Below, in pieces: positions 37,569 through 64,000 of a DNA stretch of 64,000 nt; position 1 is the stretch's first letter, and each line of letters starts with the position of its first letter. The notes below the pieces were generated by a model. That model did no database searches and was not told the DNA's origin. It saw only the letters and a program-made list of their open reading frames with translations. This stretch comes from Streptomyces virginiae (GTDB lineage Bacteria > Actinomycetota > Actinomycetes > Streptomycetales > Streptomycetaceae). A program made the translations under genes and the position numbers. The stretch is from contig NZ_JOAK01000003.1 in assembly GCF_000720455.1 (NCBI RefSeq), forward strand, positions 1 to 64,000, in the 5' to 3' direction.

Positions 37569-38864
37569 TCAGGGGCGGGAGAGCGCGTTCTCGGGCGGGG
37601 CCGGCGCCTGATCCGGAGAGGCCGCCCCGTCCTTCCCGGACGCCTGCGTGGCGCGCAGCCGGGTCAGCGCCGGGCTGGTGATCGCCGTCGTCACCAGTGC
37701 CATCAGCACGAGCATGGTGAACAACTGCGGCCCGATCACACCCAGTTCCAGTCCGACGTTGAGCACCACCAGCTCGGTCAGCCCCCGGCAGTTCATCAGG
37801 GCGCCGATCGACAGGGCCTCCCGCCACGGTCTTCCGCTCGCGCGTGCCGCTCCCGTGGCGCCGCCCCATTTGCCGAGGAAGGCGACCGCCAGGATGGCGG
37901 CCGTCCACAGCCACAGCTCGGGAGAGGCCGTCAGGCCGCCGATGTCGGTGCGCAGCCCCGTGTGCACGAAGAACAGCGGCAGCAGCACGGGCACCGTGAA
38001 GGCACGCAGCCGGGCCGCCGCCACCTCGATGCGCCCACCGGTGCGCGGGGTGATCACCCCGAACAGGAACGCGCCGAACAGCGCGTGCACGCCGATCCGG
38101 TCGGTGGCCAGCGCGGACAGGCTCAGCCCGCTGAAGAGCGCCACCAGGACCATCGCGTCCCCGGCCCGGTCGGCGCGGGCCGCCCAGCGGGCCAGCAGCG
38201 GCCGTACCGCGTACAGCATGAACAGGGTGAAGGCCACGGCGAGGCCGGCCGTGGTGGCCGCCTCCATCGGGGATCCGGCCGAGGAGAGCGCCACCACCAG
38301 TGCCAGCAGGCACCACGCGACGACGTCGTCCACGGCCGCGCAGGCCATGGCGAGCGCCCCGAGCGGCGTCCCGTACAGGCCCCGGTCGATGAGTATCCGG
38401 GCCAGTACGGGGAAGGCCGTGATGCTCATGGCGACGGCCATGAACAGGATGAACGGCGTCCGGCCCACGCCGTCCGGGGCGAATCCGTCGTACATCGCGA
38501 TCGCGAGGAGCGCGCCCAGGGTCAGCGGCAGGAGCATGCCCGCCTGGCTCACGGCGACCGCGACGCGGGTGTGACCGCGCAGGTTCTTCAGGTCGAGCTC
38601 CAGGCCGACCAGGAACATGAAGGCGAGCAGGCCCAGTTGGCCGAGGACCGAGGTGTACGGCAGGACGGACGCCGGGAACAGCGCGTGCTGGGCCTGCGGC
38701 CAGATCCAGCCCAGCAGGGACGGGCCCAGCAGGATGCCGGTGGCGATCTCGCCCACCACCGGGGGCTGCCCCAGCCGGCGGCAGACCGCGGCTCCCGCCT
38801 GGCAGGCGAGGATCACCGCCGGAACGGCGACCAGCAGGGCGGGCAGTGGATCAGCGGACGACAC
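37569..38864 (-). CDS. Cation:proton antiporter (CPA2/Kef type), last gene of the halogenase arm
   Basis: A 431-aa membrane protein with about twelve helices. GEIATGILLGPSLLG near residue 37, FLVGLELDLKNLRG and a later ACAAVDDVVAWCLLALV carry the acidic/Asp-Asp ion site of CPA2 antiporters; VHTGLRTDI and FGAFLFGVITPR are further family motifs. It lacks TrkA domains. Its start overlaps the flavin reductase gene by 14 bp, so it is translated with the halogenase-reductase set. Within a biosynthetic cluster it may serve ion homeostasis or export; this is inference. Confidence 0.88.
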   Translation of the reverse strand: MSSADPLPALLVAVPAVILACQAGAAVCRRLGQPPVVGEIATGILLGPSLLGWIWPQAQHALFPASVLPYTSVLGQLGLLAFMFLVGLELDLKNLRGHTRVAVAVSQAGMLLPLTLGALLAIAMYDGFAPDGVGRTPFILFMAVAMSITAFPVLARILIDRGLYGTPLGALAMACAAVDDVVAWCLLALVVALSSAGSPMEAATTAGLAVAFTLFMLYAVRPLLARWAARADRAGDAMVLVALFSGLSLSALATDRIGVHALFGAFLFGVITPRTGGRIEVAAARLRAFTVPVLLPLFFVHTGLRTDIGGLTASPELWLWTAAILAVAFLGKWGGATGAARASGRPWREALSIGALMNCRGLTELVVLNVGLELGVIGPQLFTMLVLMALVTTAITSPALTRLRATQASGKDGAASPDQAPAPPENALSRP

Positions 38865-39471
38865 GGGTGCCTCCTTCGGGGGCGCCGGGGCGCAGGGCGG
38901 CGGACGGGACGAGGTGCGGGGCCGGCGGCGGGAACGAGGCCGCCTCCGACCACCGGGCGTAGCGGCGCAGGCCGTACAGCAGGGGCTGCGGATCCTCCCG
39001 TACGGTCACCCGGCGGACCTCGGCGAAGACGGCCGTGTGGTCCCCGAACCCGACGGTCCTGACCACGGCGCAGTCCGCCACGGCGTGCGCGTCCGCGGTC
39101 AGGTGGGGCCCGCCCGCCCCCAGCGGCAGCCGCCACTCGACGCGCTCGAAGCGGTCGGGCGCGCCCGAGGCGAACAGGTCGGAGGCGCCGCGGGCCCGCT
39201 CGTGCAGCAGGTTGAGGGCGAAGGCCCCCTGGGCGAGCACCACCGCGAGCGTCGGGCTCGCCGACCGTACGCACACCACGACCGTGGGCGGTTCGAGGGC
39301 GACGCTCGCGACGGAACTGCAGGTCAGGCCATGGGGCACGGTGTCCGAGTCCAGGGTGGTGACGATGGACACCCCGGTGGGGAAGGCAGCCATGAAGGGC
39401 CGGAGGTCCGCGCGGCGGTTTCTGGCCGACTCGTCCGGCGCGGCGGGGTGGTGCGCGGAGCGGTGGGGCAT
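38851..39471 (-). CDS. Flavin reductase (FMN/FAD split-barrel), halogenase partner
   Basis: A 206-aa NAD(P)H:flavin reductase of the HpaC/PrnF/RebF type. Motifs: FMAAFPTGVSIVTTLDSD, GLTCSSVASVALEPPTVVVC, FALNLLHERARGASDLFAS and a C-terminal GDHTAVFAEVRRV plus LLYGLRRYARW. It reduces free FAD, which the upstream halogenase needs as FADH2. CAGGAG is six bases before the ATG. It sits between the halogenase and antiporter genes in one left-reading operon, separated from the halogenase by a hairpin. Confidence 0.92.
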   Translation of the reverse strand: MPHRSAHHPAAPDESARNRRADLRPFMAAFPTGVSIVTTLDSDTVPHGLTCSSVASVALEPPTVVVCVRSASPTLAVVLAQGAFALNLLHERARGASDLFASGAPDRFERVEWRLPLGAGGPHLTADAHAVADCAVVRTVGFGDHTAVFAEVRRVTVREDPQPLLYGLRRYARWSEAASFPPPAPHLVPSAALRPGAPEGGTRVVR

Positions 39472-39499
39472 GTCTGACTCCTGAAGTGGCTGGAAGCGA

Positions 39500-39543
39500 C
39501 AGCGGCCCGGCCGCCGGCGGAGTGCCGTGCTGCCGGGCCGCTG
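39500..39543 (-). terminator. Perfect 12-bp stem hairpin between halogenase and reductase genes
   Basis: CAGCGGCCCGGC pairs exactly with GCCGGGCCGCTG over a 20-base loop. It starts 13 bases after the halogenase stop. Since reductase and halogenase must work together, it more likely sets their ratio (partial termination or mRNA stability) than ends the operon. Confidence 0.6.
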
Positions 39544-39555
39544 ACGCGGAGGGCC

Positions 39556-41333
<1,778 letters not shown>

Positions 41334-42338
41334 ATGACCACCGCAGCGACCGAGACAGCGGGGCCGGCGGTACGCGTCCGCTTCCTGGGCGATTTCGAGC
41401 TGACCGTGAACGGCACCCCCGTACGCCGCTGGAAGGCCGGCAAGGCCCGCGGCCTCTTCCAGTACCTCGTCGTCCACCGCGGCCAGATGCTCACCCGCGA
41501 CCGGCTCTACGCCTCCCTGTGGCCCGGCACCGACAGCACCGCGGGCAGCTCGCTCAAGGTCGCCGCCCACGCGCTGCGCCGGGTGCTGGACGCCCACCCC
41601 GACCGCCCCGGCGACTCCGGGATCCAGCTGGTCTACCGCGACTTCGGCTACGTCCTCAACGTCACCGGCCTGTGGTCCGACCTCGACCGCTTCCAGGAAC
41701 TCGTCCACGCCGGCCTGCGCGCCGCCACCGCCGGCGACACCGCGCTCGCCCGGACCCGGCTGCGGGCGGCGATCGCCCTGTACGGCGGCGAGTTCCTGCG
41801 CGGCGAGAGCGCCGACTGGGTCGTCGAACAGCGCGAATACCTCAGGGCACTGGTCCTGCGGGCCCTGGGCGTGCTGCGCGCCGACGCCGAGGACCGCGAG
41901 GACTTCGTGGAGCTGATCGAGCTCTGCAAGCGCACGCTGGAGATCGACCGCCACCACGAGGAGACCTACCGCGCGCTGATGGCCGCGCACGGCCGACGCG
42001 GCGAACTGGCCTGCGTACGCCGCTGGTACGAGCTGTGCGCCCGCCGGATGCGCGACGAACTGGCCGTGGCACCCGGCCACGAGACCCAGCGGCTGCTGCG
42101 CACCCTGATCCCGGCCGCCGCCCGCGCCGCCGCACCCGGGCCCGCGCCCGCTCCCGCCTCCGTCGGCGGCGCCCCCGCCACGGTCCGCGCACTGCGGCCC
42201 GCCGGGCGCCAGCCCGGGACACCGGCGTGGAGCCCGGAAGTCCGCAACCCCGCCCTGGCCCGGCCCGTCCGCAGGGCCAGGCCCGACAACCGGGCCCCGG
42301 CCGTCCTGGCCCGCACCGCCGACCCTGCGACCGCGTGA
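41334..42338 (+). CDS. SARP-family pathway-specific activator (AfsR/DnrI/RedD type)
   Basis: A 334-aa SARP. An OmpR-like winged-helix domain (about 13-100) shows VRFLGDFELTVNGTPVRRW, KARGLFQYLVVHRGQMLTRDRLYASLWPG and LKVAAHALRRVLD. The bacterial transcriptional activator domain (about 108-255) has YGGEFLRGESADWVVEQREYL and LEIDRHHEETYRALMAAHGRRGE. A Pro/Ala-rich tail of about 75 residues follows. It should activate the NRPS operon and the divergent halogenase operon through 11-bp repeats. It stands 55 bp upstream of the aldehyde dehydrogenase gene and probably heads that operon. Confidence 0.93.
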   Translation: MTTAATETAGPAVRVRFLGDFELTVNGTPVRRWKAGKARGLFQYLVVHRGQMLTRDRLYASLWPGTDSTAGSSLKVAAHALRRVLDAHPDRPGDSGIQLVYRDFGYVLNVTGLWSDLDRFQELVHAGLRAATAGDTALARTRLRAAIALYGGEFLRGESADWVVEQREYLRALVLRALGVLRADAEDREDFVELIELCKRTLEIDRHHEETYRALMAAHGRRGELACVRRWYELCARRMRDELAVAPGHETQRLLRTLIPAAARAAAPGPAPAPASVGGAPATVRALRPAGRQPGTPAWSPEVRNPALARPVRRARPDNRAPAVLARTADPATA

Positions 42339-42393
42339 CCGACACCGCTGTTCAGCGAGCCCGTGATTTCCGCGACCGAGTGAGGACTCCACC

Positions 42394-43977
42394 GTGACCG
42401 TGCTGACCGTGCCGACCGTGCCGCAGGGCTCCAGACCGCCCGGCGACGACCCGAACGCGGCCGCCCTGCCGCCCCGTTACACCGACCAGTGGATCGGCGG
42501 CGCGTGGGTCGCCTCCGAGGCCGACGGCCGTCTCGTCGTGACCGACCCCGCCACCGAGCGCGCCCTGGCCACCGTCCCCGCGGGCACCGCCCGGGACGCC
42601 GACCTCGCGGCGCGCGCCGCCGCGGGCGCCTTCGAAGGCTGGGCCGCGACCCCGCTGCGCCAACGGACCGCCCTGCTGCGCAGGGTCGTCGAGGCCATGG
42701 AGGTGCGGGCCGACCGGTTCGCGGAGGTCATCACCGCCGAGGTGGGCGCGCCCGCCCGGATGGCCCGGCACACCCACGTCGGACTCTCCCTCGGCATGGC
42801 CGCCCACTGCGTCGAGACCGCCGCCTCCTACGCCTTCGAGGAGCGGGTGGGCCACTCGCTCGTCGTGCGCGAGGCCGCCGGGGTCGCCGCCTGCATCACC
42901 CCGTGGAACACCCCGCTGCTGCTGACCGTGCAGAAGATCCTCCCGGCGCTGGCGGCCGGCTGCACCGTCGTGCACAAGCCGAGCGAGATCACCCCGCTGC
43001 ACGCCCGGCTGCTCGCCGAGGCCATCGCCGAGGCGGACCTGCCGCCCGGCGTCTTCAACATGGTCGTCGGCACCGGCGACACCGTCGGCACGGCCCTGGT
43101 CACCCACCCGCTGGTCGACGTGGTCTCCCTGACCGGTTCCACCCGGGCCGGCCGCGACGTCTCCGCGCTCGGCGCCGACCGCGTCAAGCGCGTCCACCTC
43201 GAACTCGGCGGCAAGAACGCCAGCCTCGTCCTCGACGACGCCGACCTGGCCCCGGCCGTCGCCGCCACCGTCGACCAGATGCTCTTCAACACCGGCCAGA
43301 CCTGCCTGCAGTGGAGCCGGCTGCTGGTGCCTCGCGAGCGGCAGGACGAGGCCGTGGACCTCGCCGTCCGGGCCATGGAGGGCTACGTCACCGGGGATCC
43401 GCGCGATCCGGCGACCGACCTCGGCCCGCTGGTGTCGGCGGCCGCGCACGCCCGCGTCACCGGGTACATCCGCCGCGGCGTCGAGGAGGGCGGAGCCCGC
43501 CTGGTCCACGGCGGCCCCGACCGGCCCGCCGGCCTGGACACCGGCTACTACGTGCGGCCGACGGTCTTCGCCGACGTCGACCCGCTCACCACGATCGCCC
43601 AGGAGGAGATCTTCGGACCGGTGCTGTCCGTCATCCCCTACGACGACGAGGAGCAGGCCGTCCGGATCGTCAACGGCACCCGCTACGGGCTGCACGGCGC
43701 GGTCTGGTCCGGCGACGACGCCCGCGCCGAGAAGGCGGCGCGCCGCTTCCGCTCCGGCCTGGTCGACGTGAACGGCGGCCAGTTCAACCCGGCCGCGCCG
43801 TTCGGCGGCTTCAAGCAGTCCGGGATCGGACGCGAGTGCGGCGCGGCCGGACTGGAGGCCTTCCTGGAGACCAAGTCGATGCAGCTCCCGCAGGGCACGG
43901 GGGGCCAGGTGGTCGGCCCGCGGCTGCGGGCCACCGAGGCCGCCCGCCCCGCGGACACCGAGAGGAACGACGGATGA
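42394..43977 (+). CDS. NAD(P)-dependent aldehyde dehydrogenase
   Basis: A 527-aa ALDH. Substrate/NAD regions ITPWNTPLLLTVQKILPALA and VVSLTGSTRAGRDV are present, as are the catalytic Glu in HLELGGKNASLVL and the catalytic Cys in FNTGQTCLQWSRLL. EIFGPVLSVIPYDDEE and PFGGFKQSGIGRE close the fold. It oxidises an aldehyde to a carboxylic acid. In this operon a likely substrate is an indole-3-carbaldehyde-type intermediate (inference). GTG start with GAGGACT upstream; its stop overlaps the A-T gene (ATGA). Confidence 0.93.
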   Translation: MTVLTVPTVPQGSRPPGDDPNAAALPPRYTDQWIGGAWVASEADGRLVVTDPATERALATVPAGTARDADLAARAAAGAFEGWAATPLRQRTALLRRVVEAMEVRADRFAEVITAEVGAPARMARHTHVGLSLGMAAHCVETAASYAFEERVGHSLVVREAAGVAACITPWNTPLLLTVQKILPALAAGCTVVHKPSEITPLHARLLAEAIAEADLPPGVFNMVVGTGDTVGTALVTHPLVDVVSLTGSTRAGRDVSALGADRVKRVHLELGGKNASLVLDDADLAPAVAATVDQMLFNTGQTCLQWSRLLVPRERQDEAVDLAVRAMEGYVTGDPRDPATDLGPLVSAAAHARVTGYIRRGVEEGGARLVHGGPDRPAGLDTGYYVRPTVFADVDPLTTIAQEEIFGPVLSVIPYDDEEQAVRIVNGTRYGLHGAVWSGDDARAEKAARRFRSGLVDVNGGQFNPAAPFGGFKQSGIGRECGAAGLEAFLETKSMQLPQGTGGQVVGPRLRATEAARPADTERNDG

Positions 43978-45806
43978 CCGAGCCCCATGCCGGGGCGGCC
44001 GGGGCGAGCGCCCCGGGCGCACTCCCGCCGCTGTTCGCCCGCCTGGAACGGTGGACCCGCGAACAGCCGAACGAGACCGCGGTCAAGGCCGTGGACGGCA
44101 GCCTCACCTACGCGGCGCTGACCGCCCGCACCGCCCGGTACGCCGCCGCCCTCGCCCGCGCCGGAGTCGGCCCCGAGACCCCGGTCGGGCTCCTGCTGGG
44201 CCGGTCCCGCGAGAGCGTGCCCGCCCTGCTCGCCGTCTGGAGCCTGGGCGGGACGGCCGTACCGCTGGACCCCGGGCATCCCGTCGAGCGCCTCGGCGGG
44301 GTACTGCGCGACGCCGGCGCCGCCGTCCTGGTCGCCACCGGGGTGCCCGCCGGCCTGGAGACCGGCGGCATCGGCCTCCTGACCCCCCGCGAGGTCCGCC
44401 GCGGCGCCCCCGGGGCGCTCGCCGTGTCCCCGCCCGCCCCCGACGGCTGCGCCTACCTCATCTACACCTCCGGAACCACCGGCCGCCCCAAGGGCGTCGA
44501 GGTCACCTACCGCGGCCTGGACACCTTCGTCGAGGCCCTCCGCGGACTCGGCCTGCCCCCCGGCGGACTCGGACTCAACGCCGTCTCGCCCGCCTTCGAC
44601 GGCTGGCTCTGGTGCACCCTGCTCTACCTCGTCCACGGCCAGGGGGTGGCCCTCACCGACCTCTCCCTCGACGGACTGCGCCAGGCCGCCGCCGAGGACC
44701 GCGAGCCGCTGCCCGCCGGACTGCGCACGGTCTCCCTCACCCCGTCGCTGCTCGCCGCCCACGGCGCGGGCCTCGACGCCGCCGAGGTGGTCGTCGTCGC
44801 CGGGGAGGCCTGCCCGGCCGCACTGGCCGAGCGGTTCGCCCACGGCCGCCGGCTGCTCAACGTGTACGGGCCGACGGAGGTGACCATCGCCGCCACCTGG
44901 GCCGACAGCCGACGAGGGGACGACGTGACCAGTATCGGACGCCCGTTGCCCGGCTACCGGGCGTACGTCCTGGACGAGGAGCTGCGGCCGGTGCCCACGG
45001 GCACCGAGGGCGAGCTCTACCTCGGCGGGCCCGCCGTCGCCCGCGGCTACCGGGGCCGCCCCGGACTCACCGCCAGCCGCTTCCTGCCCGACCCCTTCCA
45101 GGGCGGCGGCACCCGCATGTACCGCACCGGCGACGTGGTGATCCGCCGTGACGGCGGCGAACTGGAGTACCGGGGCCGCCGGGACGACCAGGTGAAGGTC
45201 CGCGGCCACCGCATCGAGCTCGGCGAGGTGGAGCGCATCGCCGCCGAACTCCCCGAGGTCGTCGCCGCCGCCTGCTGCCCGCTGGCCTCGGGCCAGGCCC
45301 TCGGCCTCGCCGTCGTCGCGGCACCCGGCGTCGCCGACCCGGCCGGGCTCGCCGCCCGGGTCGTGGAGCGCTGCCGCAAGCAGCTGCCCGCGGCGGCGGT
45401 ACCGGGCACGGTGCGGGTACTGGACCGGATCCCGACGCTGACCACCGGCAAGGCCGACCGCGCGGCGCTCGCCCGGGCCCTGGCGGAGCCGGAACCCGGC
45501 GACGGACCGGACGCGGCCGGCGGCGCCGCGCTCAGCGCGAGCGAGCGCACGGTGATGACCGTGTGGGCCGAGGTGCTCGCCACCGAGGTCCCCGGCCCCG
45601 AGGCGGACTTCTTCGACCTGGGCGGTCACTCCCTGGCCGCCGCCCGCGCGGTGTCGGAGCTGCGCAGGACGACCGGCCTGCGCGTCGGCCTCGGTGCCCT
45701 GCTGGCCCGGCCGACGGTCGCCGACGTCGCCGCCGAGATCGACCGGCTCGCAGCCGAACAGGGCGGGCCCGCCGGCGACGCGGCCGACACCGCCGAAGGG
45801 GCGTAG
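43974..45806 (+). CDS. Free-standing NRPS adenylation-thiolation didomain (A-T)
   Basis: A 610-aa A-T protein. A3 is AYLIYTSGTTGRPKG, A5 NVYGPTEVTIAATW, A7 YRTGDV, A8 RGRRDDQVKVRGHRIELGEVE and A10 TTGKADR. The T domain has FFDLGGHSLAA with the pantetheine Ser553. Asp209 in AFDGWLW occupies the amine-binding Asp235 position, so an alpha-amino acid is expected. My hand-aligned ten-residue code is D-G-W-S-V-A-V-I-A-K. Small Gly at the second position would allow a large side chain such as tryptophan (inference). With MbtH, P450 and type II TE it resembles cassettes that make beta-hydroxy amino acids on a carrier. It overlaps the ALDH stop by four bases. Confidence 0.93.
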   Translation: MTEPHAGAAGASAPGALPPLFARLERWTREQPNETAVKAVDGSLTYAALTARTARYAAALARAGVGPETPVGLLLGRSRESVPALLAVWSLGGTAVPLDPGHPVERLGGVLRDAGAAVLVATGVPAGLETGGIGLLTPREVRRGAPGALAVSPPAPDGCAYLIYTSGTTGRPKGVEVTYRGLDTFVEALRGLGLPPGGLGLNAVSPAFDGWLWCTLLYLVHGQGVALTDLSLDGLRQAAAEDREPLPAGLRTVSLTPSLLAAHGAGLDAAEVVVVAGEACPAALAERFAHGRRLLNVYGPTEVTIAATWADSRRGDDVTSIGRPLPGYRAYVLDEELRPVPTGTEGELYLGGPAVARGYRGRPGLTASRFLPDPFQGGGTRMYRTGDVVIRRDGGELEYRGRRDDQVKVRGHRIELGEVERIAAELPEVVAAACCPLASGQALGLAVVAAPGVADPAGLAARVVERCRKQLPAAAVPGTVRVLDRIPTLTTGKADRAALARALAEPEPGDGPDAAGGAALSASERTVMTVWAEVLATEVPGPEADFFDLGGHSLAAARAVSELRRTTGLRVGLGALLARPTVADVAAEIDRLAAEQGGPAGDAADTAEGA

Positions 45807-45809
45807 GCC

Positions 45810-46556
45810 ATGGGTACCTGGATCTCCACCTGGACGGCGGACCTCGCCGACCCGGCCCTGCCCGTACTGCTGTGCCTGCCCCCCGCCGGGGCCGGCTGCC
45901 AGCAGTTCCGCGCCTGGCAGCCCGCGCTGGAGGGCACCGCGCAGGTGTACGGCGTACAGCTGCCGGGCCGGGAGAACCGCTGGCGGGAGCCCATGCCCGA
46001 CACCTTCGACGAGGCCGTCGAGGCCATCGCGACCGAACTGGTGTCCACCGTCGGGAACCGGCCGCTGATCGTCTTCGGGCACAGCTTCGGCGGGCTCCTC
46101 GGCTACGAGGTCTCCCGCCGGGTCACCCCGCGCGCCCTGGTGGTCAGCGGCTGCCGGGCGCCCGGCCACTGGACCGGAGCCGGCCGCGGCATCGTCGACG
46201 ACGGAGAGGAACTGGACAAGCTCTTCGACACGGCCGACCTCGACCCGCGACTGCTCGACGAGGACACCCGGGCCCTGATGGTCGGGATGCTCCGCAAGGA
46301 CGCCCAGCTGTCCCTGAGCTACGTCCACAAGCCGGGCACCCGCCTCTCCGTACCCGTGCACGCCTGGGGCGCCGACGGCGACGAGACCGTCAGCGCCGCC
46401 GACCTGGACGGCTGGGCGGCGGTCACCACCGCCGGTTTCACCCGGCACACCACCACCGGCGGACACCACGCCGTACTGCGCCGCCCCCAGCCCGTACTGG
46501 ACCACCTGAGCGCCCTGCTGCGGGGCGAGGGAGCGTCCCTCACCCCGACCGCCTGA
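45810..46556 (+). CDS. Type II thioesterase
   Basis: A 248-aa alpha/beta-hydrolase: LLCLPPAGAGCQQFRAWQPAL, LPGRENRWREP, nucleophile elbow FGHSFGGLLGYE with Ser, acid in HAWGADGDETV and His in TGGHHAVLRRP. These TEs hydrolyse misprimed or finished acyl groups from carrier proteins. In quinoxaline-type cassettes a TE II frees beta-hydroxytryptophan from the A-T protein, and a similar role fits here. It begins three bases after the A-T stop. Confidence 0.92.
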   Translation: MGTWISTWTADLADPALPVLLCLPPAGAGCQQFRAWQPALEGTAQVYGVQLPGRENRWREPMPDTFDEAVEAIATELVSTVGNRPLIVFGHSFGGLLGYEVSRRVTPRALVVSGCRAPGHWTGAGRGIVDDGEELDKLFDTADLDPRLLDEDTRALMVGMLRKDAQLSLSYVHKPGTRLSVPVHAWGADGDETVSAADLDGWAAVTTAGFTRHTTTGGHHAVLRRPQPVLDHLSALLRGEGASLTPTA

Positions 46557-46596: not shown

Positions 46597-46776
46597 GTGC
46601 CCACCACCCACCAGGTCCTCGTGAACCACGAGGGGCAGTACGCGCTGTACCCCGCCACGCGCGAGACGCCCGACGGCTGGACGCCGGCCGGCTTCGACGG
46701 CACCGAGGACGAATGCGCCGCCTTCGTCGACGCCCACTGGCCCGACATCCGCCCGCTCAGCCTGCGAGGAGCCTGA
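46597..46776 (+). CDS. MbtH-like protein (59 aa)
   Basis: A 59-aa MbtH family chaperone of adenylation domains: VLVNHEGQYALYPATRETPDGW, GFDGTEDECAAFVDAHWPDIRPLSLR. The hallmark N-x-E-x-Q-x-S-L-W-P reads NHEGQYALYP, with Ala and Tyr replacing the usual Ser and Trp, while W (TPDGW), W (HWPDIRPLSLR) and the Pro are kept. GTG start at 46597 with GGAGGACACC upstream. It ends one base before the P450 ATG. It probably activates the A-T protein and/or the NRPSs of this cluster. Confidence 0.92.
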   Translation: MPTTHQVLVNHEGQYALYPATRETPDGWTPAGFDGTEDECAAFVDAHWPDIRPLSLRGA

Positions 46777-46777
46777 G

Positions 46778-55031: not shown

Positions 55032-55045
55032 CGGTCCTGCCCCAC

Positions 55046-55211: not shown

Positions 55212-58200
55212 GTGAGCGAGTCCCTCGCCGAACGCATAGCCGCACTGCCGAAGTCCCGCAGGGCACTGTTCCAGGCCCTGACGGGCCGCACCGGCGGGCG
55301 CGCCGCCGTACGGGAGGACCCCGAGCCGGCACCCCGTGACCCCGCGGACCCGCCGGTGCTCTCCTTCGCGCAGCGCCGGCTCTGGTTCATCGACCAGCTC
55401 CAGCCCGGCAGCCCCGCCTACAACGTGCCGGTGGCCACCCGCATCCGCGGCCCGCTCGACGTCCCCGCCCTGCACGCGGCGCTCCAGGACATCGTGGACC
55501 GCCACGAGGTGCTGCGCACCGTCTACACCTACCGGGAGGGCGCCTCCGAGGCCCTGCCCCGTGTGGTGGACGGCTTCCGGCTGCCCCTGCCGCTGACCGA
55601 ACTGCCCGGCGAGGAGGCCGTCCGGCCGTTCTACGACGCGGACGCGGGCGCCCCCTTCGACCTGGCCGGCGCCGTCCCGCTGCGGGCCCGGCTCGGCCGC
55701 CTCGGAGCCGAGGACCACGTCCTCGTCCTCAACCTCCACCACATCGTCACCGACGGCTGGTCGATGCGGATCCTCTACACCGAACTGGAGCGCGCCTACG
55801 CCGCCCGCACCGGCGCCCCCGCCGAGGCGAACGCCCCGCTCGCCCTCCAGTACGCCGACTTCGCCACCTGGCAGCGGCGCCGCGTCAGCGGGGACCGGCT
55901 GGAGGGCCTGACCTCCTTCTGGCGGGAGGAACTGGGCGGCGCCGCACCCGTGGACCTGCCCACCGACCGGCCCCGGCCCCCCGTCTTCGGGCACGAGGGA
56001 GCCTCCCGCTACATCGACCTCCCGCCCCGTCTCATCGCCCGGCTCAGGGAGTTCGGCAAGTCCGAGGGCGCCACCCTCTACATGACGATGCTGGCCGGCT
56101 TCGCCGCCACCCTGCGCCGCTGGACCGGCCAGGAGGACATCGTCGTCGGCACCTCCGTCTCCGGCCGCGACCACCCGGCCTTCAGCGAACTCATCGGCTT
56201 CTTCGTCAACACCCTGCCGCTGCGCATCAGAACCGGCGGCGACCCCGGTTTCGCCGAGCTGGTCCGCGCCACCCGCCACACCACCCTGCAGGCGTACGCG
56301 CACCAGGAACTGCCCTTCGACCTCATCGTCGACACCCTCGGGCTGCCCCGCGACCCGAGCCGGCCGCCACTGACCTCCGTGATGTTCCTCCTCGACGAGA
56401 CCCCGGACACCGCCCCCGGCCTCGCGGGCCTCGCCACCGAGCCCATCGACTTCTCCTCGCACGCCACCAAGTACGACCTCATGATCAGCGTCCACGACAC
56501 CGGTACCGCGGTCCGCGCCCTCGTGGAGTACCCCACCGCCCTGTTCGACGCCTCGACCGTGGACCGGCTGCTCGGCCACTTCCTCACCACCCTCGAAGGC
56601 GCCGTCGACCGCCCCGACGCCCCGCTGTCCGCCCTGCCGCTGCTCACCGACGCCGAACGGCACGCCGCCCTGGACGACTGGAACGCCACCCGCGCCCCCT
56701 TCCCCCAGGACGCCTGCCTGCACCACCTCTTCGAGCAGCACGCCGACCGCCGGCCCGACGCGCCCGCCGTGGTCCTCGGCGGACTCGGCGGCTGGAGCGT
56801 CACCTACCGGGAGCTGGAGGAGCGCGCCAACCGTCTCGCGCACCGGCTCGCCGGGGCCGGGGCGGGCCCCGGCCGGACCGTGGCCCTGTGCCTGCGCCGC
56901 GGCCCCGGCCTGGTCACCGCGATCCTCGCCGTCCTGAAGTCCGGCGGGGCCTACGTACCCCTCGACCCGGACTACCCCGCAGAGCGCCTCGCCCTGCTGC
57001 TGGAGGACGCCGCGCCGCCCATCGTCGTCTCCGACGCGGAGCTCATCGGCCGGCTGACCGTCCCCGACGGCACCGCACGGGTGCTCCTGGACGCCGACCG
57101 GGCCGCCCTCGCCGAACTCCCCGCGACCCGGCCCGACGTCCCCGTCACCGCCCGGGACCTCGCCTACGTCATCTTCACCTCGGGCTCCACCGGCACCCCC
57201 AAGGGGATCGCCCTGGAGCACCGCGGCGTGGTCAACAACCTCCTCGACCTCAACCGCTCGTACGGCATCGGCCCCGGCGACTCGGTGCTCGCGCTGTCCT
57301 CGCCCAGCTTCGACATGAGCGTCTACGAAACCCTCGGCATCCTGGCGGCGGGCGGCACGCTCGTCCTGCCCGACCCGGCCGCCGCCAAGGACCCGGCCCA
57401 CTGGGCCGACCTCGTCGACCGGCACGCGGTCACCGTCTGGAACTCCGCCCCCGCCCTCCTCGGCCTCCTCGTCGACCAGCTCGAACACGCCGGCGGCCCC
57501 CGACTGCCGAAGCTGCGCACCGCGTTCCTCGGCGGTGACTGGATCCCCGTCACCCAGCCCGACCGGATCCGCGCCTTCGCGCCCGAGCTGTCCTTCGTGG
57601 CACTCGGCGGGGCGACCGAGGCGTCCATCCATTCGGTGGAGTACCGGGTGGGCCGCGTCGATCCGCAGTGGACGAAGCTCCCGTACGGCCGCCCCATGGC
57701 CAACCAGCGCACCTACGTACTCGACCCGCACGACCGCCTGGTCCCCGTCGGCGTGCCCGGCGAACTCCACCTCGGCGGAGTCGGACTGGCCCGCGGCTAC
57801 CTGAACCGGCCCGAGCTCACCGAGGAGAAGTTCGTCCACGTCGAGCTGGAACCCGGCCGCACCGAACGCCTCTACCGCACCGGCGACCTGGCCCGCTACG
57901 GCACGGACGGCACCATCGAACTCCTCGGCCGCACCGACTTCCGGATCAAGCTCAACGGGCTCCGCATCGAGCCCGGCGAGGTGGAGAGCGCGCTGCGCGA
58001 CCGCCCCGGCGTCCGTGAAGCCGTCGTCGCCGCCCGCCGTACCGCCGCCGGATCGGACCGCCTCGTCGGCTACGTCGTCCCCGAGGACGGCGCCGACCTC
58101 GACACCGCCGCCCTGCGCACCGCACTCGGCGCGGTCCTGCCCCCGCACTGCGTCCCCGCCGAACTGGTGCTGCTGGAGCGGCTGCCGCTCAGCCCCAACG

Positions 58201-59297
58201 GCAAGGTGGACCGCGGCGCCCTGCCCGACCCGCGCCCCGCCGTCCCCGTCGCGGACCGGCCCGCGGCCGCACCGGCGGACGGCGACCCCGTCGCCCTGCG
58301 GATCGCCGCCGTCTGGGCCGAGGTGCTCGGCGTGGCCGAGGTGGCGCCCGACGACGACTTCTTCGCCCTGGGCGGGGACTCCTTCGCCGCCGTGCGCGCC
58401 GTACGGGCCGTCGCCGCCGCCCTGCCCGACGGCGGGGCCGCCGCCCTGCGCGTGGTCGACCTCTTCAGCAACCCGACTCCGGCCGGCCTCGCGGCCCGCA
58501 CCGCCGAACTCGGCGCCGCCGGCACGGGGGCGCACCGCCTGCTGCACCGGCTCACCCCCGAACGCCCGCCCGGTACCACCTCCCTGACCCTGGTCTGCTT
58601 CCCCCACGGCGGCGGCGACGCCATCGCCTACCAGCCGCTCGCGGCCCAGCTCCCGCCGCACATCGAGCTGCTGGCCGTCTCCCCGCCCGGACACGACCCG
58701 CTGCGCCCCGGCCCGATGCTGCCGGTCCCCGACTTCGCGGAACTCGCCGCCCGGGAGATCGCCCGAACCGTACGGGGCCCGTACGCGGTCTACGGCCACT
58801 GCGCCGGAGTCGTCACCGCGCTGGAGACCACCCACGTCCTCGAACGGCTCGGACAGCGCCCGGTCGCCCTGGACCTCGCCGCGGCCCTCCCCGAGGAGGA
58901 CCCGGAGTACGCCCTGGAGATGGAACGCGTCTCCGGCGACGACGACCTCGTCGCCTACCTGACCACCATGGACGGCTTCGACGGCGTCCTCGACGACCGC
59001 GACCTCACCGCCGTCCTGCGGATGGTGCGGCACGACATGACCGAGGCCGCCCGCTTCTTCGCCCGCACCCCGGCCGGCTACGACCGGCCCCTGGCCACCC
59101 CGCTCACCTGCATCATCGGCGACGCCGACGACGCCACCGACGGCTACGAGGACGGCTACCGCGCCTGGAGCCGCTACGCGGCCGACGTGAGGCTCGCCGT
59201 GATCCCCGGTGGCCGCCACTACTTCGCCAAGCACCTCCCCGACCGGCTCGCCGCCCTGCTCGCCGACCTGCACCGCAACGGAGGAAACCATGTCTGA
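55212..59297 (+). CDS. NRPS with C-A-T-TE architecture; TE has a Cys nucleophile
   Basis: 1361 aa. C domain about 48-470 with H176-H177-IVTDG. A domain about 500-1005 (FTSGSTGTPKG, SFDMSVYETLG, LGGATEASIHS, YRTGDL, PNGKVDR). T domain with Ser1057 in LGGDSFAA. TE about 1125-1361. The LGGATEAS motif and hand-aligned code D-M-Y-N-F-G-L-I-H-K resemble the cysteine code DLYNLSLIWK, so Cys or a beta-hydroxy/thiol relative is likely. The TE elbow is YGHC1197AG, Cys replacing Ser (codon 58800-58802), with a His in PGGRHYFAKH. GTG start with GGAGG six bases upstream. Its end overlaps the next NRPS by 8 bp. The TE suggests this protein acts last despite its gene position. Confidence 0.93.
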   Translation: MSESLAERIAALPKSRRALFQALTGRTGGRAAVREDPEPAPRDPADPPVLSFAQRRLWFIDQLQPGSPAYNVPVATRIRGPLDVPALHAALQDIVDRHEVLRTVYTYREGASEALPRVVDGFRLPLPLTELPGEEAVRPFYDADAGAPFDLAGAVPLRARLGRLGAEDHVLVLNLHHIVTDGWSMRILYTELERAYAARTGAPAEANAPLALQYADFATWQRRRVSGDRLEGLTSFWREELGGAAPVDLPTDRPRPPVFGHEGASRYIDLPPRLIARLREFGKSEGATLYMTMLAGFAATLRRWTGQEDIVVGTSVSGRDHPAFSELIGFFVNTLPLRIRTGGDPGFAELVRATRHTTLQAYAHQELPFDLIVDTLGLPRDPSRPPLTSVMFLLDETPDTAPGLAGLATEPIDFSSHATKYDLMISVHDTGTAVRALVEYPTALFDASTVDRLLGHFLTTLEGAVDRPDAPLSALPLLTDAERHAALDDWNATRAPFPQDACLHHLFEQHADRRPDAPAVVLGGLGGWSVTYRELEERANRLAHRLAGAGAGPGRTVALCLRRGPGLVTAILAVLKSGGAYVPLDPDYPAERLALLLEDAAPPIVVSDAELIGRLTVPDGTARVLLDADRAALAELPATRPDVPVTARDLAYVIFTSGSTGTPKGIALEHRGVVNNLLDLNRSYGIGPGDSVLALSSPSFDMSVYETLGILAAGGTLVLPDPAAAKDPAHWADLVDRHAVTVWNSAPALLGLLVDQLEHAGGPRLPKLRTAFLGGDWIPVTQPDRIRAFAPELSFVALGGATEASIHSVEYRVGRVDPQWTKLPYGRPMANQRTYVLDPHDRLVPVGVPGELHLGGVGLARGYLNRPELTEEKFVHVELEPGRTERLYRTGDLARYGTDGTIELLGRTDFRIKLNGLRIEPGEVESALRDRPGVREAVVAARRTAAGSDRLVGYVVPEDGADLDTAALRTALGAVLPPHCVPAELVLLERLPLSPNGKVDRGALPDPRPAVPVADRPAAAPADGDPVALRIAAVWAEVLGVAEVAPDDDFFALGGDSFAAVRAVRAVAAALPDGGAAALRVVDLFSNPTPAGLAARTAELGAAGTGAHRLLHRLTPERPPGTTSLTLVCFPHGGGDAIAYQPLAAQLPPHIELLAVSPPGHDPLRPGPMLPVPDFAELAAREIARTVRGPYAVYGHCAGVVTALETTHVLERLGQRPVALDLAAALPEEDPEYALEMERVSGDDDLVAYLTTMDGFDGVLDDRDLTAVLRMVRHDMTEAARFFARTPAGYDRPLATPLTCIIGDADDATDGYEDGYRAWSRYAADVRLAVIPGGRHYFAKHLPDRLAALLADLHRNGGNHV

Positions 59298-62200
59298 TCT
59301 CGCCGAACGGCTCGGCCGCCTGCCCCAGGGACAGCGCTCCCGGCTGCTGGGCAGGATGCGCAACCAGATGACGGCCGGCGTGGGCCGCCGCGTCGAACTC
59401 AAGCGCGCCGACCACGGACCGCGCTCCCGCTCCTCCTTCCAGCAGGAGCAGATGTGGTTCGTCGACAAGCTCGGCGCCGGCAAGGCCCGCAACAACATAG
59501 CCCTCTCCATAACCCTCGGCGGTCCGCTCGACCGGGCCGCCCTGCACGAGGCGCTCAACGCCGTCGTCGCCCGCCACCAGGTGCTCCACAGCAAACTCGT
59601 CGAGATCGACGGAGTCCCCTGGCAGGAACCGGTCCCCTCCTTCGTCCTCGGCATCCAGAGCACCGACCTGTCGGGCAGCGAGGACGCCGACCGCGAACTC
59701 GCCGAGCTGACGGCCGGCTGCGCAGCAGCCCCCTTCGACCTGGCCGCCGCCCCGCCCGTCCGTGCCCACCTGGTGCGCCTCGCCGCGGACCGGCACGTCC
59801 TGCTCTGGGTCGTCCACCACATCGCCTGGGATCCGGGCTCGACCCGCATCTTCACCGAGGAGCTGACCACCAGCTACGCCGCGGCCGCCGCGGGCAAGCG
59901 CCCCGAAGCCCCCAGACTCGCCGTCGAGTACGCGGACTTCGCGGCCTGGCAGCGGGCCAAGCTGGAGAACGACGAGCACGGCCGGGCGCTCTCCGCCAAA
60001 TGGCGCCAGATCCTCGCCGGCGCCGTCGCCACCGAGGTCATGCCCGACCACCCGCGCGGTCCCGAGACCAAGGGCGACGGCCGCGGCCTGAAACTGACCC
60101 TCGACCAGAAGCTGCTGGACCGGCTCACCGAGCTCGCCGACGCGGGCAGCACCACCGTCTTCACCACCCTGCTGGCCGCCTTCAACGCGCTGCTGCGGCA
60201 CTGGACCCGCACCGAGGACGTCGTCGTCGGCACCGCGAGCGCCTCCCGCCCGCACCCCGACCTGGAACAGGTCATCGGCTGCTTCGTCCAGATGATCACC
60301 CTGCGGACCGAGGTCACCGACGGGCTCACCTTCCGCGAGCTCGTCACCCGCACCGCGGCCTCCGTGATGGACTCCTTCACCAGCAGCGAACTGCCCTTCG
60401 AGCAGGTCGTCGAGGCCGTCCGCCCGGTCCGCGACCCGCTGCGCCACCCGCTCTTCCAGATCGAGTTCACCTCGCTCGGACGCTGGGGCACCCACCGGGC
60501 GCAGGCCGCGGACGTCGAGTTCGCCATGGACCAACTGCACGACGGGGCAGCCAAGTTCGACATGAGCTTCCTCGTCGGCGAGAACGACGGCCTGGAACTC
60601 TCCCTCGAATACAACACCTCCCTCTACCGGCACGGCACGGCCAGTGCCCTCCTCGCCGCCTTCCGGCAGGTCCTGGAGCAGGTCGCCGACAACCCCGACC
60701 TGCGGGTCGGCGACATCAGCCTGGTCGAGGAGCCGGCCGCCTCCCGGCACGCCCGCGAGCTGTCCCGCGGCGGCCCCGTCGACGAGGCCGCCTGGACCAC
60801 CACCCTGGACCGCGCCTTCCGCGAGCGGGCCACCATCCACCCCGACGCCGTCGCCGTCCGGCACGGCGCCACGCGGCTGGACTACGCGGCCCTCGACCGC
60901 TGGTCCGAGGCCATCGCCCACCGGCTGCGCGACCGGGGCGTCGGACACGGAGACCCCGTCGCCGTGTGCGTGGCCCGCGGCCCGGCCGCCGTCGCCGGCG
61001 TCCTCGGCGTCCTCAAGGCGGGCGCCCACTACATCCCGGTCGACCCGGCGGCCCCGGCCGAGCGGACCCGTACGGTCCTGGCCGACGCCAAGGTCCGCCA
61101 CGCCCTCGTCGACGAGAGCGCACAACTGCCCGTACCCCTGGAACTCGTCAACACCGGGACCGCGGCCCCCGTCCGGGAGGTCCCCTCCCTCGCCCTCAGC
61201 TCCACCCCCGCCGACCTGGCCTACGTGCTCTACACCTCCGGCAGCAGCGGAACCCCCAAGGGCGTCATGATCGAGCACCGCTCGGTCACGCACTTCTCCC
61301 GCACCATCGCCAAGGCCTACGAGATCAAGGCCGAGGACCGGGTGCTGCAGTTCGCCCCCCTCACCTTCGACGTCTCCGTCTTCGAGATCTTCACCACCCT
61401 GCTGGCCGGCGGCTCGCTCGTCATCGCCACCGACGACGAACGCCGCGACCCGGCCCTGCTCCAGGCACGGATGCGCGAGGACGCGGTCACCGTCGCCGAA
61501 CTCCCGCCCGCCCTCCTGCCGCTCCTCGACCAGGCGGCCCTGCCCGACCTGCGCCTGGTCTCGGTGGGCGGCGAGGCCTTCCCCGGCCGGCTCGTCGCCG
61601 AATGGACCGCGGGGGAGCGGAGGTTCGTCAACGGCTACGGGCCCACCGAGGCGACCGTCGCCGTCACGCTGATGGACTGCACCGGCAGCTACGACCGCAA
61701 CCCGCCGATCGGCCGCCCCATGCCCGGCCACCAGGCGTTCGTCCTCGACGAGCGGCTGCGCCCGGTGCCGCCCGGCGTCCCCGGCGAACTGTGCGTGGCC
61801 GGCCCCGGCGTGGCCCGCGGCTACCTGGGCCGCCCCGACCTGACCGCCGAACGCTTCGCGGACAACCCCTACGCCGACGGCCCCGAGACCGCCCGCCTCT
61901 ACCGCACCGGCGACCTGGTGCGCTGGCTGCCCGGCGGCAACCTGGACTTCCTCGGCCGCACCGACCGCCAGCTCAAGGTCCGCGGCCACCGCATCGAGCC
62001 CGGCGAGGTCGAGGCCGTCCTGACCGGGCACCCCTCCGTGCAGCAGGCCGTCGTGGTGGCCCAGCCCGCCGCGGGCGGCGAGCGCATGCTGGCCGCCTAC
62101 GTCACCGTCGAGCAGGTCGGCTCCTACGCCTCGGAGGTCGCCGACGCCGAGGGCCTGCGCGCCTACACGGCCGTCCGGCTCCCCGGCTACATGGTCCCGG

Positions 62201-62646
62201 TGGTCGTCGTCCTGGACGAGCTGCCGCTGACCCCCCACGGCAAGGTCGACACCGCCGCCCTGCCCCTGCCCACGGAGCACTCGGCGCAGGGCGGGACCCC
62301 GCCGCGCGACGCCGTCGAGGAGCAGATCTGCCGCGACATCCTCACCCCCCTCCTGGAATGGCAGAACCCGGACGTCGAAGGCGACTTCTTCGCCCTGGGC
62401 GGCAGCTCCCTCCAGGCCACCATCGTCGTCTCCCGGGTCCGCGCCCTCTTCGGCATCGACATCGCCCTCGCCGACTTCTTCGGCCGCCCGACCGTCTCGG
62501 GCCTCGCCGAACTCGTCCGCGCCGCGAAGGCCGAGGCCGCCGGCGAACAGGACCGGCTGCTCGCGGTCTTCGAGCAGATCGAGAACATGAGCGACGAAGA
62601 GGCCGCCGCCCTCCTCGGCTCCCTCCAGCAGCCGGAGGGACCCTGA
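59290..62646 (+). CDS. NRPS module C-A-T
   Basis: 1118 aa. C domain about 45-470 with H176-H177-IAWDP (D181 kept, the usual Gly182 is Pro). A domain about 505-990 with YTSGSSGTPKG, TFDVSVFEIF, NGYGPTEATVA, YRTGDL and PHGKVDT. T domain with Ser1040 in FFALGGSSLQA, then an acidic C-terminal tail. The hand-aligned specificity code is D-V-F-E-S-G-G-V-A-K, which I cannot assign with confidence. It has no epimerase or TE, so it is an internal extension module. The start overlaps the preceding NRPS by 8 bp and the stop overlaps the next one (TGATG), so all three are translationally coupled. Confidence 0.93.
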   Translation: MSDLAERLGRLPQGQRSRLLGRMRNQMTAGVGRRVELKRADHGPRSRSSFQQEQMWFVDKLGAGKARNNIALSITLGGPLDRAALHEALNAVVARHQVLHSKLVEIDGVPWQEPVPSFVLGIQSTDLSGSEDADRELAELTAGCAAAPFDLAAAPPVRAHLVRLAADRHVLLWVVHHIAWDPGSTRIFTEELTTSYAAAAAGKRPEAPRLAVEYADFAAWQRAKLENDEHGRALSAKWRQILAGAVATEVMPDHPRGPETKGDGRGLKLTLDQKLLDRLTELADAGSTTVFTTLLAAFNALLRHWTRTEDVVVGTASASRPHPDLEQVIGCFVQMITLRTEVTDGLTFRELVTRTAASVMDSFTSSELPFEQVVEAVRPVRDPLRHPLFQIEFTSLGRWGTHRAQAADVEFAMDQLHDGAAKFDMSFLVGENDGLELSLEYNTSLYRHGTASALLAAFRQVLEQVADNPDLRVGDISLVEEPAASRHARELSRGGPVDEAAWTTTLDRAFRERATIHPDAVAVRHGATRLDYAALDRWSEAIAHRLRDRGVGHGDPVAVCVARGPAAVAGVLGVLKAGAHYIPVDPAAPAERTRTVLADAKVRHALVDESAQLPVPLELVNTGTAAPVREVPSLALSSTPADLAYVLYTSGSSGTPKGVMIEHRSVTHFSRTIAKAYEIKAEDRVLQFAPLTFDVSVFEIFTTLLAGGSLVIATDDERRDPALLQARMREDAVTVAELPPALLPLLDQAALPDLRLVSVGGEAFPGRLVAEWTAGERRFVNGYGPTEATVAVTLMDCTGSYDRNPPIGRPMPGHQAFVLDERLRPVPPGVPGELCVAGPGVARGYLGRPDLTAERFADNPYADGPETARLYRTGDLVRWLPGGNLDFLGRTDRQLKVRGHRIEPGEVEAVLTGHPSVQQAVVVAQPAAGGERMLAAYVTVEQVGSYASEVADAEGLRAYTAVRLPGYMVPVVVVLDELPLTPHGKVDTAALPLPTEHSAQGGTPPRDAVEEQICRDILTPLLEWQNPDVEGDFFALGGSSLQATIVVSRVRALFGIDIALADFFGRPTVSGLAELVRAAKAEAAGEQDRLLAVFEQIENMSDEEAAALLGSLQQPEGP

Positions 62647-64000
62647 TGGCCGGACCGGCCGGGCTGGAGGGAGCGCTCGCCGCGCTCCCCGAGGGCAAGC
62701 GCGAGCTCGCCCGCCTGATGCTGGCCGCCCGCCGGCCCGTACCCGCACACCCGGCCCCGCGCTCCGGCGCGGGGCCGGTCCCGCCCACCGCCCTCCAGAC
62801 CCGGCTGTGGCGCCGCGAGCGCACCCACCCGGCCGTCGCCACCGGCTCCCACGCGCTGCGGCTGACCGGCCCCCTCGACCCACGACGGCTGGAGGAGGCC
62901 CTCACCGGGGTGCTGCGCCGCCACGAGGCGCTGCGCACCCGGCTGGTCCGCTCCACCGCCGACCAGCCGCGGCTGCACGTGGACGGGGAACCGGTCCTGC
63001 GGCTCACCCGGGCCGACCTGTCGGGCTTCACCCCGCAGGCCGCCGCCGAGCGGACCGCCCTGCAGCTCACCGAGAGCGCCTCCACCGTCCTGGACCTGGA
63101 GAGCGGCCGCACCAGCGCCTTCCGGCTGCTGCGGACCGCGCCCGACGAGCACGTGCTGATCCTCGCCTCCCACCTCGCGGTCTTCGACGGCTGGTCCTCG
63201 GGGGTCTTCCTCGCGGACCTCGCCGCCGGCTACCGCGAGGGCCCGGAGGACCTCACCCCGCCCGAACTCCAGTTCCCCGACTACGCCGACTGGCAGCACC
63301 GCTGGCTCGCCGGACCGGACGGCACCGCCGAACTCACCCGCCGCCGGGCGGTGTTCGCGGCCGACCCGCCCGCGCCCCGGGCCCCCGGCGGCTTCGAGCG
63401 CGGACACCTGCCCGTACGGCTGGCCCGCGGCCCCGTCGACGCCGGGCTGGAGCTGGGCGCGGCCGAAGGGGCCACTCCGTTCATGACCCTGCTCGCCGCG
63501 CTCGGCGTCGTACTGGCCCGCAGGGACGGCCGTACCTCCGTCGTGATCGGCACCCCGGCCGCCGGCCGGTTCGCCGCACCGCTCGAAGGCGCCGTCGGGC
63601 AGTACACCACCGTCGTGCCGATCCGGCTCGACCTCGCGGGCGGGCCCTCCTTCCGCGAGCTCCTGCACCGCACCCGCACCGCCGTGGCCGAGGCCCTGGC
63701 CCACCAGCGCCTGCCCGTCGACGTGCTGTTCGGTGACGGCACGCCCCCGCCCTACAACGTCCTGTTCGCCCTCCACAACTACCCGGCCGTACCGCTGGAC
63801 CTGCCGGGCATCGAGGTCGGCCAGCTGCCCGGACCGCCCGCACGCCACCTGGAGCTCTACAGCCCCGACCCGGCCGCCGCCCTCGCCTGCGTGGGCCTGG
63901 TGGAGCGGGACGGCGAGATCGGCGGCACCGCCGAGTACAACCGGCACGCGGCCACGCCCGAGGACGTGCGGGGCCTGCTCACCGGGATCGAGGAGGTACT
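62646..64000 (+). CDS. NRPS, N-terminal condensation domain (runs off the window)
   Basis: 451 codons are visible, with no stop. After a short helical N-terminus (LEGALAALPEGKRELARLML) comes a condensation domain: TALQTRLWRRE, RRHEALRTRLVRS, then SH176-L177-AVFDGWSSG, PDYADWQHRWLAG, TPFMTLLAALGVVLAR, GTPAAGRF and VGQYTTVVPIRLDL. The second, catalytic His of HHxxxDG is Leu (codon 63174-63176), so the domain may be inactive or non-canonical. Downstream domains are outside the window. The start overlaps the previous stop by one base. Confidence 0.9.
   Translation, partial: MAGPAGLEGALAALPEGKRELARLMLAARRPVPAHPAPRSGAGPVPPTALQTRLWRRERTHPAVATGSHALRLTGPLDPRRLEEALTGVLRRHEALRTRLVRSTADQPRLHVDGEPVLRLTRADLSGFTPQAAAERTALQLTESASTVLDLESGRTSAFRLLRTAPDEHVLILASHLAVFDGWSSGVFLADLAAGYREGPEDLTPPELQFPDYADWQHRWLAGPDGTAELTRRRAVFAADPPAPRAPGGFERGHLPVRLARGPVDAGLELGAAEGATPFMTLLAALGVVLARRDGRTSVVIGTPAAGRFAAPLEGAVGQYTTVVPIRLDLAGGPSFRELLHRTRTAVAEALAHQRLPVDVLFGDGTPPPYNVLFALHNYPAVPLDLPGIEVGQLPGPPARHLELYSPDPAAALACVGLVERDGEIGGTAEYNRHAATPEDVRGLLTGIEEV

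Follow-up and report, generated by a model that had tools for sequence, protein, structure and literature searches.

Extent and identity of the cluster

The window analysed here covers the first 64 kb of contig NZ_JOAK01000003.1 (620 kb) in the 8.3-Mb genome of Streptomyces virginiae, and its right-hand part carries a nonribosomal peptide synthetase (NRPS) gene cluster. To judge by its sequence, this locus is very probably the gene cluster for tambromycin, a known cytotoxic peptide, in a Streptomyces of the S. virginiae/avidinii group. It runs from position 37569 to 79262 (41.7 kb, 25 genes called); inspection of the sequence beyond 64 kb shows that it continues for about 15 kb past the window edge on the same contig. 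An original prediction, made from the window alone, had described a halogenase-containing NRPS cluster for a chloroindole-capped azoline peptide. All of the enzymes that it listed are present in the order given, each matching above its Pfam cut-off, and its chemistry is retained here, but it had not recognized the locus as the known cluster for tambromycin and had overlooked both the AlkZ-like gene and the half of the pathway that involves lysine and dehydrogenases. Its left boundary at 37569 falls on an antiporter gene that it had not listed and that is probably the edge of the cluster.

In size and gene content, the cluster resembles BGC0001368, the MIBiG entry for tambromycin (tbm) from Streptomyces sp. 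NRRL F-4474, which is described as 27 genes over 42,431 bp (PMC8466323), a likeness judged from the published size and gene content. All 27 tbm genes are reported as clustered in 36 of 2062 Streptomyces genomes, with 10 more lacking the 4'-phosphopantetheinyl transferase (PPTase) gene (PMC8466323), and the cluster is stated to be conserved across groups 1-3 of S. virginiae (PMC13273461). In S. antarcticus H27-S2, an NRPS cluster with 96% similarity to the JBIR-126 (tambromycin) cluster has been reported (PMC12451607), and by blastn, counting only pieces longer than 300 bases, we find this locus to be 89.1% identical in DNA to ours over 96% of the cluster. By the same measure, the locus of S. 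yangpuensis is 94.4% identical over 98.6% of the cluster, that of S. avidinii 90.6% identical (coverage within 96-99%), and that of Streptomyces sp. TRM49041 83.5% identical over 85%. Published passages on tambromycin mention a chlorinated indole, a methyloxazoline and an AlkZ-like (AZL) gene (PMC9040887), α-methylserine and a pyrroline-containing residue (PMC8466323), α-methylserine joined to an unusual residue together with an indole prepared from 4-methoxyindole (PMC9291613), and lysine feeding (PMC10206073). As the cluster has already been described, its existence is no news; what the comparison below does is to place most tambromycin genes in one half of the molecule. It also suggests how tambroline may be made, in a form that can be tested, and connects the pathway with antibiotics of the ficellomycin type.

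We compared 13 tambromycin-type regions with one fmo-type cluster (genome G033) and one cluster from Frankia canadensis. The 13 regions come from 11 of the 15 genomes encoding a cyclization-adenylation-thiolation (Cy-A-T) NRPS at least 80% identical to ours (G001, G004, G005 and G006 were left out), plus G259 and G638; those of G008, G009, G010 and G013 end at a contig end on one side, and three short loci (L005, L016 and L020) were tabulated outside the count of 13. The label fmo-type for G033 rests on its Cy-A-T, which over 296 residues shares 84% identity with FmoA3, the NRPS for α-methylserine in the JBIR-34/35 pathway. All 13 tambromycin-type regions contain two acyl-CoA dehydrogenase genes (ACAD1, 91-99% identical, and ACAD2), together with genes for a GNAT protein, a stand-alone condensation (C) domain, an aldolase, a serine hydroxymethyltransferase (SHMT), the Cy-A-T NRPS and the AlkZ-like protein. 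The G033 and Frankia clusters have no orthologue of ACAD1, ACAD2, the GNAT gene or the stand-alone C domain. Since only two non-tambromycin clusters were compared, the sample is small.

The chloroindole-methyloxazoline half

The genes assigned to the indole cap begin on the minus strand with a flavin reductase (38851-39471; Pfam Flavin_Reduct, 124 bits), which would supply FADH2 to the adjacent tryptophan halogenase (39556-41157, minus strand; Pfam, 544 bits) and also occurs in the fmo-type (46% identity) and Frankia (63%) clusters. The halogenase has the WxWxIP and GxGxxG motifs, and its best matches in the PDB are tryptophan 6-halogenases (902 bits, versus 873 for RebH); by these nearest relatives, it is predicted to be of the Trp-6 type. 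Further right, the plus strand encodes an aldehyde dehydrogenase (ALDH; 42394-43977; Pfam Aldedh, 512 bits), a free-standing A-T didomain (43974-45806; Pfam), a type II thioesterase (TE II; 45810-46556; Pfam Thioesterase), an MbtH-like protein (46597-46776; Pfam MbtH) and a cytochrome P450 (46778-47992; heme motif FGHGRHLCLG). The A-T didomain, clustered with the MbtH and TE II genes, has Asp235 and the code DGWSVAVI(A), which we take to be tryptophan-like (all codes given here are numbered on a GrsA segment). Its motif blocks vary little or not at all across the 13 sequences examined, a set that includes the one from Frankia.

Next on the plus strand is an NRPS with A, T, Cy and methyltransferase (MT) domains (48008-51946; Pfam; Cy motif DFLVADAWS), whose best stretch against FmoA3 (PDB 6lta) is its Cy domain. 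The code of its A domain, AVMMVTTN, is without Asp235, and the domain therefore appears to take an acid without an α-amine; we infer that it loads chloroindole-3-carboxylate. An A domain lacking Asp235 had been predicted to receive the cap and does exist in this protein, whereas the free A-T didomain has the residue. An aldol-cleaving enzyme had likewise been expected outside the window, and a GntG-type pyridoxal phosphate (PLP) aldolase is found about 3 kb beyond the edge (67153-68223, minus strand). Its closest matches in the PDB are L-(allo-)threonine aldolases, and it passes the NCBIfam cut-off for GntG-type PLP aldolases (328.6 versus 230), as does its 67% identical counterpart in F. canadensis. 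On sequence comparison, the aldolase is kept with the indole half.

Together, these genes suggest a route in which the halogenase and flavin reductase would chlorinate tryptophan, the A-T didomain with its MbtH-like protein would load (chloro)tryptophan, the P450 would β-hydroxylate the carrier-bound residue, and TE II would release it. The aldolase would then cleave β-hydroxy(chloro)tryptophan to glycine and chloroindole-3-carbaldehyde, which the ALDH is proposed to oxidize to the acid. We consider this course of chlorination, β-hydroxylation, aldol cleavage and oxidation likely. Much the same chemistry had been proposed from the window, and it fits the relatives of the P450, the tryptophan-like code of the A-T didomain, its MbtH and TE II context, the aldolase and the A domain lacking Asp235.

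The top match of the P450 in the PDB is 4l0e (302 bits), which we take to be P450sky, an aminoacyl-carrier-protein β-hydroxylase, and the fifth is 3mgx, presumably OxyD. Several points weigh against the route as drawn. Reconstructed CYP125 ancestors rank second and third (285 and 281 bits versus 302), and the indole of tambromycin carries a 4-oxygen (PMC9291613, PMC7067857). One P450 is not obviously able to perform both β-hydroxylation and oxygenation of the indole C4, and among the genes that all three cluster types share we found no second oxygenase of a recognized kind. Either the single P450 must do both, or a further enzyme is missing. In addition, the PF01212 enzyme of fmo-type G033 is only distantly related to the aldolase here (30% identity) and fails the GntG cut-off (85 versus 230), and the aldolase step is therefore less certain in that cluster. 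In an alternative scheme, the P450 oxygenates the indole C4 and the tryptophan side chain is lost without P450 β-hydroxylation, for example through action of the PLP enzyme on another intermediate. The 4-oxygen, the lack of another recognized oxygenase shared by the three types and the near-equal scores of the CYP125 ancestors speak for it, but the carrier-dependent context of A-T, MbtH and TE II and the fact that 4l0e and 3mgx both rank within the first five PDB matches of the P450 argue the other way, and we regard this alternative as rather unlikely.

The first peptide unit after the cap is predicted from the Cy-A-T NRPS (70361-73651, minus strand, outside the window). The match of this protein to FmoA3 (6lta) is full-length and scores 1138 bits, against 603 for the next structure, and it bears out the link to the fmo pathway that the original prediction had drawn. 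Identity to FmoA3 is 66% for both the cluster here and that of Frankia. The code, DAYNVSSC, is identical in the fmo-type and Frankia clusters, and the residues A688, N730 and S760 with which FmoA3 contacts α-methylserine (PMC11253843) are conserved. The neighbouring SHMT (68906-70306, minus strand, also outside the window) would make α-methylserine for this module; the two Cy domains would condense and cyclodehydrate it to the methyloxazoline, and the MT domain would methylate. In G033, SHMT and the α-methylserine Cy-A-T form one frame of 1716 residues (L097:9663-14813, minus strand), a fusion linking enzyme to module.

The AlkZ-like gene also goes with this half. It encodes a candidate self-resistance DNA glycosylase (52603-53634, plus strand; Pfam AlkZ-like, 182 bits against a cut-off of 25.9) and lies between the PPTase and MFS transporter genes. 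The motif QAQ is present in all 18 aligned AlkZ-like sequences, the cluster's own included; a Q-Φ-Q catalytic motif is described for AZL glycosylases (PMC8934636). Proteins of this kind have been noted in tambromycin, JBIR-34/35 and ficellomycin/vazabitide-like clusters, with genotoxicity suggested (PMC9040887), and our addition is limited to the observation that clusters without tambroline chemistry retain the gene too. The protein in the Frankia cluster is 56% identical to that of G033 and 57% identical to that here. As the gene appears to go with the chloroindole-methyloxazoline half common to the three cluster types, and not with tambroline, the comparison narrows an issue already raised in print, namely whether these peptides damage DNA and, if so, through which portion of the molecule.

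Judging from the sequence comparisons, the AlkZ-like protein probably confers self-resistance. That it is instead unrelated to resistance, as a bystander or with a function other than DNA repair, seems doubtful to us: although that role is left open in the passages of PMC9040887 on these clusters, and relatives of 49-58% identity occur, Frankia's excepted, in loci without other tambromycin genes, the gene is present in 13 of 13 tambromycin-type clusters as well as in the fmo-type and Frankia clusters, and its QAQ motif is retained throughout the alignment. The closest AlkZ-like protein found outside tambromycin-type clusters (64% identical) is from Streptomyces sp. YIM 130001, in a 21-kb locus (L020) with no other tambromycin-cluster homologue at 40% identity or above.

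Downstream modules and the ring of tambroline

The downstream modules set the tambromycin-type clusters apart, in that the corresponding A-domain codes of G033 and Frankia differ from those here. The terminal C-A-T-TE module (55212-59297, plus strand; Pfam) has the code DMYNFGLIH, and the C-A-T module that follows it on the chromosome (59209-62646, plus strand; Pfam) has DVFESGGVA; the code positions of both are invariant in the 13 sequences compared. In five other clusters (four SHMT loci at 58-61% identity, plus G458), an SHMT homologue is found no more than about 3 kb from a module whose code is DMYN[FM]G[ML]IH, and DMYNFGLIH is therefore read as a second α-methylserine code, by which the C-A-T-TE module is provisionally assigned to this residue. 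The loci in question (L099-L110 and L125, in G116, G099, G103, G249 and G458) are possibly further α-methylserine peptide clusters. The C-A-T module is assigned, likewise by prediction, to lysine (the precursor residue of tambroline), from its code and from the way in which codes like it accompany the ACAD pair. The C-A-T-TE module would add the second α-methylserine and release the peptide. While gene identities, domain order and codes can be read directly from the DNA, all of the substrates and the order of steps in this scheme are predicted from them; the predicted order of indole acid, α-methylserine (as oxazoline), lysine-derived residue and α-methylserine fits the published facts on tambromycin.

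Two further elements accompany the lysine module. The first is a stand-alone C domain (62646-64052, plus strand; Pfam Condensation, 157.5 bits), which crosses the window edge at 64000; the C domain with which the original prediction ended is thus real, but it is a separate protein cut by that edge. The second His of its HHxxxDG motif is replaced (His-Leu for His-His) in 13 of 13 sequences compared, and it is therefore probably not an ordinary condensation enzyme. The second is the ACAD pair (64138-65328 and 65325-66470, both on the plus strand and outside the window). As the pair is found in 13 of 13 tambromycin-type regions and is without orthologues in G033 and Frankia, it goes with the lysine half.

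The closest solved relative of ACAD1 is 8hk0 (271 bits, the next scoring 94; 42% identity in the fold search), titled as the Fic32-33 complex of Streptomyces ficellus, presumably the producer of ficellomycin. ColB1, titled as catalysing the dehydrogenation of assembly-line-tethered cysteine, is also in the list of fold matches, while ACAD2 has no match to 8hk0 at E-values up to 0.001. Of 394 genomes drawn from the class, seven encode a match to ACAD1 with an E-value of 1e-60 or lower: the genome studied here, G638 (96% identical, tambromycin-type) and five distant ones (40-47%). A second ACAD gene stands beside ACAD1 in all five distant loci, and four of them have an NRPS module with the code DV[FS]DFGGV[TA] within 1 kb; the fifth, G645, is without such a module. 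Two of the genomes with ACAD1 homologues, G239 and G400, hold LysX-type ATP-grasp genes, which are expected for ficellomycin/vazabitide-like clusters, and none was found in the cluster here. Codes of the form DV[FS][DE]xGGV are found in five of five ACAD-linked modules and in none of 30 other A domains detected in the regions examined (Fisher test, 3e-6), an association test devised after the pattern had been seen and counting related sequences as independent. The five modules include that of tambromycin itself, where the stand-alone C gene separates the module from ACAD1, and do not count G645; the motif pattern used to locate A domains overlooked one or more of them, among these the A-T of G033.

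We propose that the C-A-T module loads lysine, that the ACAD pair would desaturate the carrier-bound lysine between its α and β carbons, and that the ε-amine would then close the pyrrolidine of tambroline. The conserved stand-alone C domain may hold or cyclize the desaturated intermediate. On the evidence of codes and gene neighbourhoods, we give this ring closure an even chance, and it is the part of the scheme worth testing. Equally balanced, in our view, is the broader proposal of a common route to α-(pyrrolidin-2-yl)glycine units, in which a dedicated ACAD pair acts on a diamino acid bound to an NRPS, by α,β-desaturation and attack of the terminal amine on Cβ; the substrate would be lysine in tambromycin clusters (DVFESGGVA) and a longer diamino acid in ficellomycin/vazabitide-like ones (DV[FS]DFGGV[TA]). 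Against the proposed ring stands the wording of PMC8466323, which once calls the residue "pyrroline-containing", whereas our proposal gives a pyrrolidine; a pyrrolidine-containing peptide is mentioned there for JBIR-34.

Tambroline could also arise by hydroxylation of lysine at C3, by the P450 or another oxygenase, followed by displacement with the ε-amine, in which case the ACAD pair would act elsewhere, for example in oxidation of the azoline ring. The top solved relative of the P450 β-hydroxylates carrier-bound amino acids, the cluster has a single P450, and lysine dioxygenases have been used in a total synthesis (PMC9138302). The same P450, however, is found in the Frankia (81% identity) and fmo-type (61%) clusters, neither of which has the DVFESGGV module or the ACAD pair, and ACAD1 homologues adjoin DV[FS]DFGGV modules in four of the five distant clusters. 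Oxidation of the azoline by the ACADs is further disfavoured in that the azoline machinery is common to the two clusters without an ACAD1 or ACAD2 orthologue. We therefore judge this alternative unlikely, and ring closure through the ACAD pair remains the preferred reading.

Accessory genes and comparison with known systems

The gene at the left edge of the cluster encodes a Na+/H+ antiporter family protein (37569-38864, minus strand; Pfam Na_H_Exchanger, 192 bits), for which 14 of the 15 genomes searched have a counterpart (best match 73-95% identical) and Frankia has none. It stands at the same cluster edge in relatives with a spanning contig (e.g., G002, G003, G007, G009, G026 and G259) and probably belongs to the cluster, with a role in ion homeostasis or export. 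Regulators include a SARP-type protein within the window (41334-42338, plus strand; Pfam BTAD and Trans_reg_C) and two SARPs outside it (73743-75719 and 76212-79262, minus strand). The PPTase gene (51946-52590, plus strand; Pfam ACPS) has no match at the thresholds used in L009, L010, TRM70350, TRM49041 or Frankia, where neighbouring genes are present, in line with the loss described for some relatives in PMC8466323 and PMC13273461. The MFS transporter (53754-55031, plus strand; Pfam MFS_1, 102.5 bits) differs from that of the fmo-type and Frankia clusters. Outside the window, the minus strand also encodes the GNAT protein (66545-67126) and a DUF2461 protein (68220-68909), the latter common to all three cluster types and resembling only proteins of unknown function, with a fold that gives no hint of its role. 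About 6 kb to the right of the cluster, we observe a gene with a nitric-oxide-synthase oxygenase domain (85029-86165); the regions of relatives end before it.

The Frankia canadensis cluster (L078-L080, G025:C61:1-60000) combines features of the other two types. Its first half is tambromycin-type (halogenase 89%, P450 81%, A-T-Cy-MT 76%, SHMT 80% and Cy-A-T 75% identical), its downstream NRPS (58-59%) and MFS transporter (66%) instead match those of G033, and it has a DMWNTGLV module. The downstream module shared by G033 and Frankia (code DGIHLGLV) and their MFS transporter are absent from the cluster here. The Frankia cluster reads as a natural hybrid, and its product is probably chlorinated.

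It is very improbable that the cluster here is itself the JBIR-34/35 (fmo) cluster, despite the similar left half, the FmoA3 homologue and the AZL genes in both, as identity to FmoA3 reaches 84% in G033 (over 296 residues) and only 66% in our cluster, the G033 proteins are far from ours (halogenase 65%, P450 61%, A-T 48%, Cy-A-T 55%), the code DGIHLGLV is absent here while G033 is without the ACAD pair, the GNAT gene and an orthologue of the free C domain, and H27-S2, a reported carrier of the tambromycin cluster, is 89% identical in DNA.

When compared to known systems, the AlkZ-like protein shares the HTH_42/AlkZ-like family and the QAQ catalytic motif with AlkZ (5uuj), from which it differs in that the similarity is modest (88 bits). 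Fic32-33 (8hk0) is the best match of ACAD1 in both sequence and fold, whereas ACAD2 has no match to it, and LysX-type genes of the kind seen in G239 and G400 were not found in our cluster. With the fmo system, compared here through G033 and the FmoA3 structure, the cluster shares the halogenase, flavin reductase, A-T didomain, P450, ALDH, A-T-Cy-MT, SHMT, FmoA3-type Cy-A-T, DUF2461 and AlkZ-like genes; the downstream modules, transporter and A-domain codes differ, and the ACAD pair, GNAT gene and free C domain are absent there. At the level of published description, we find no difference from the tbm cluster: the two agree in extent (41.7 versus 42.4 kb) and gene number (25 called versus 27), in having AZL and PPTase genes, and in their chloroindole, methyloxazoline and lysine chemistry, with 89% DNA identity to a reported carrier strain.

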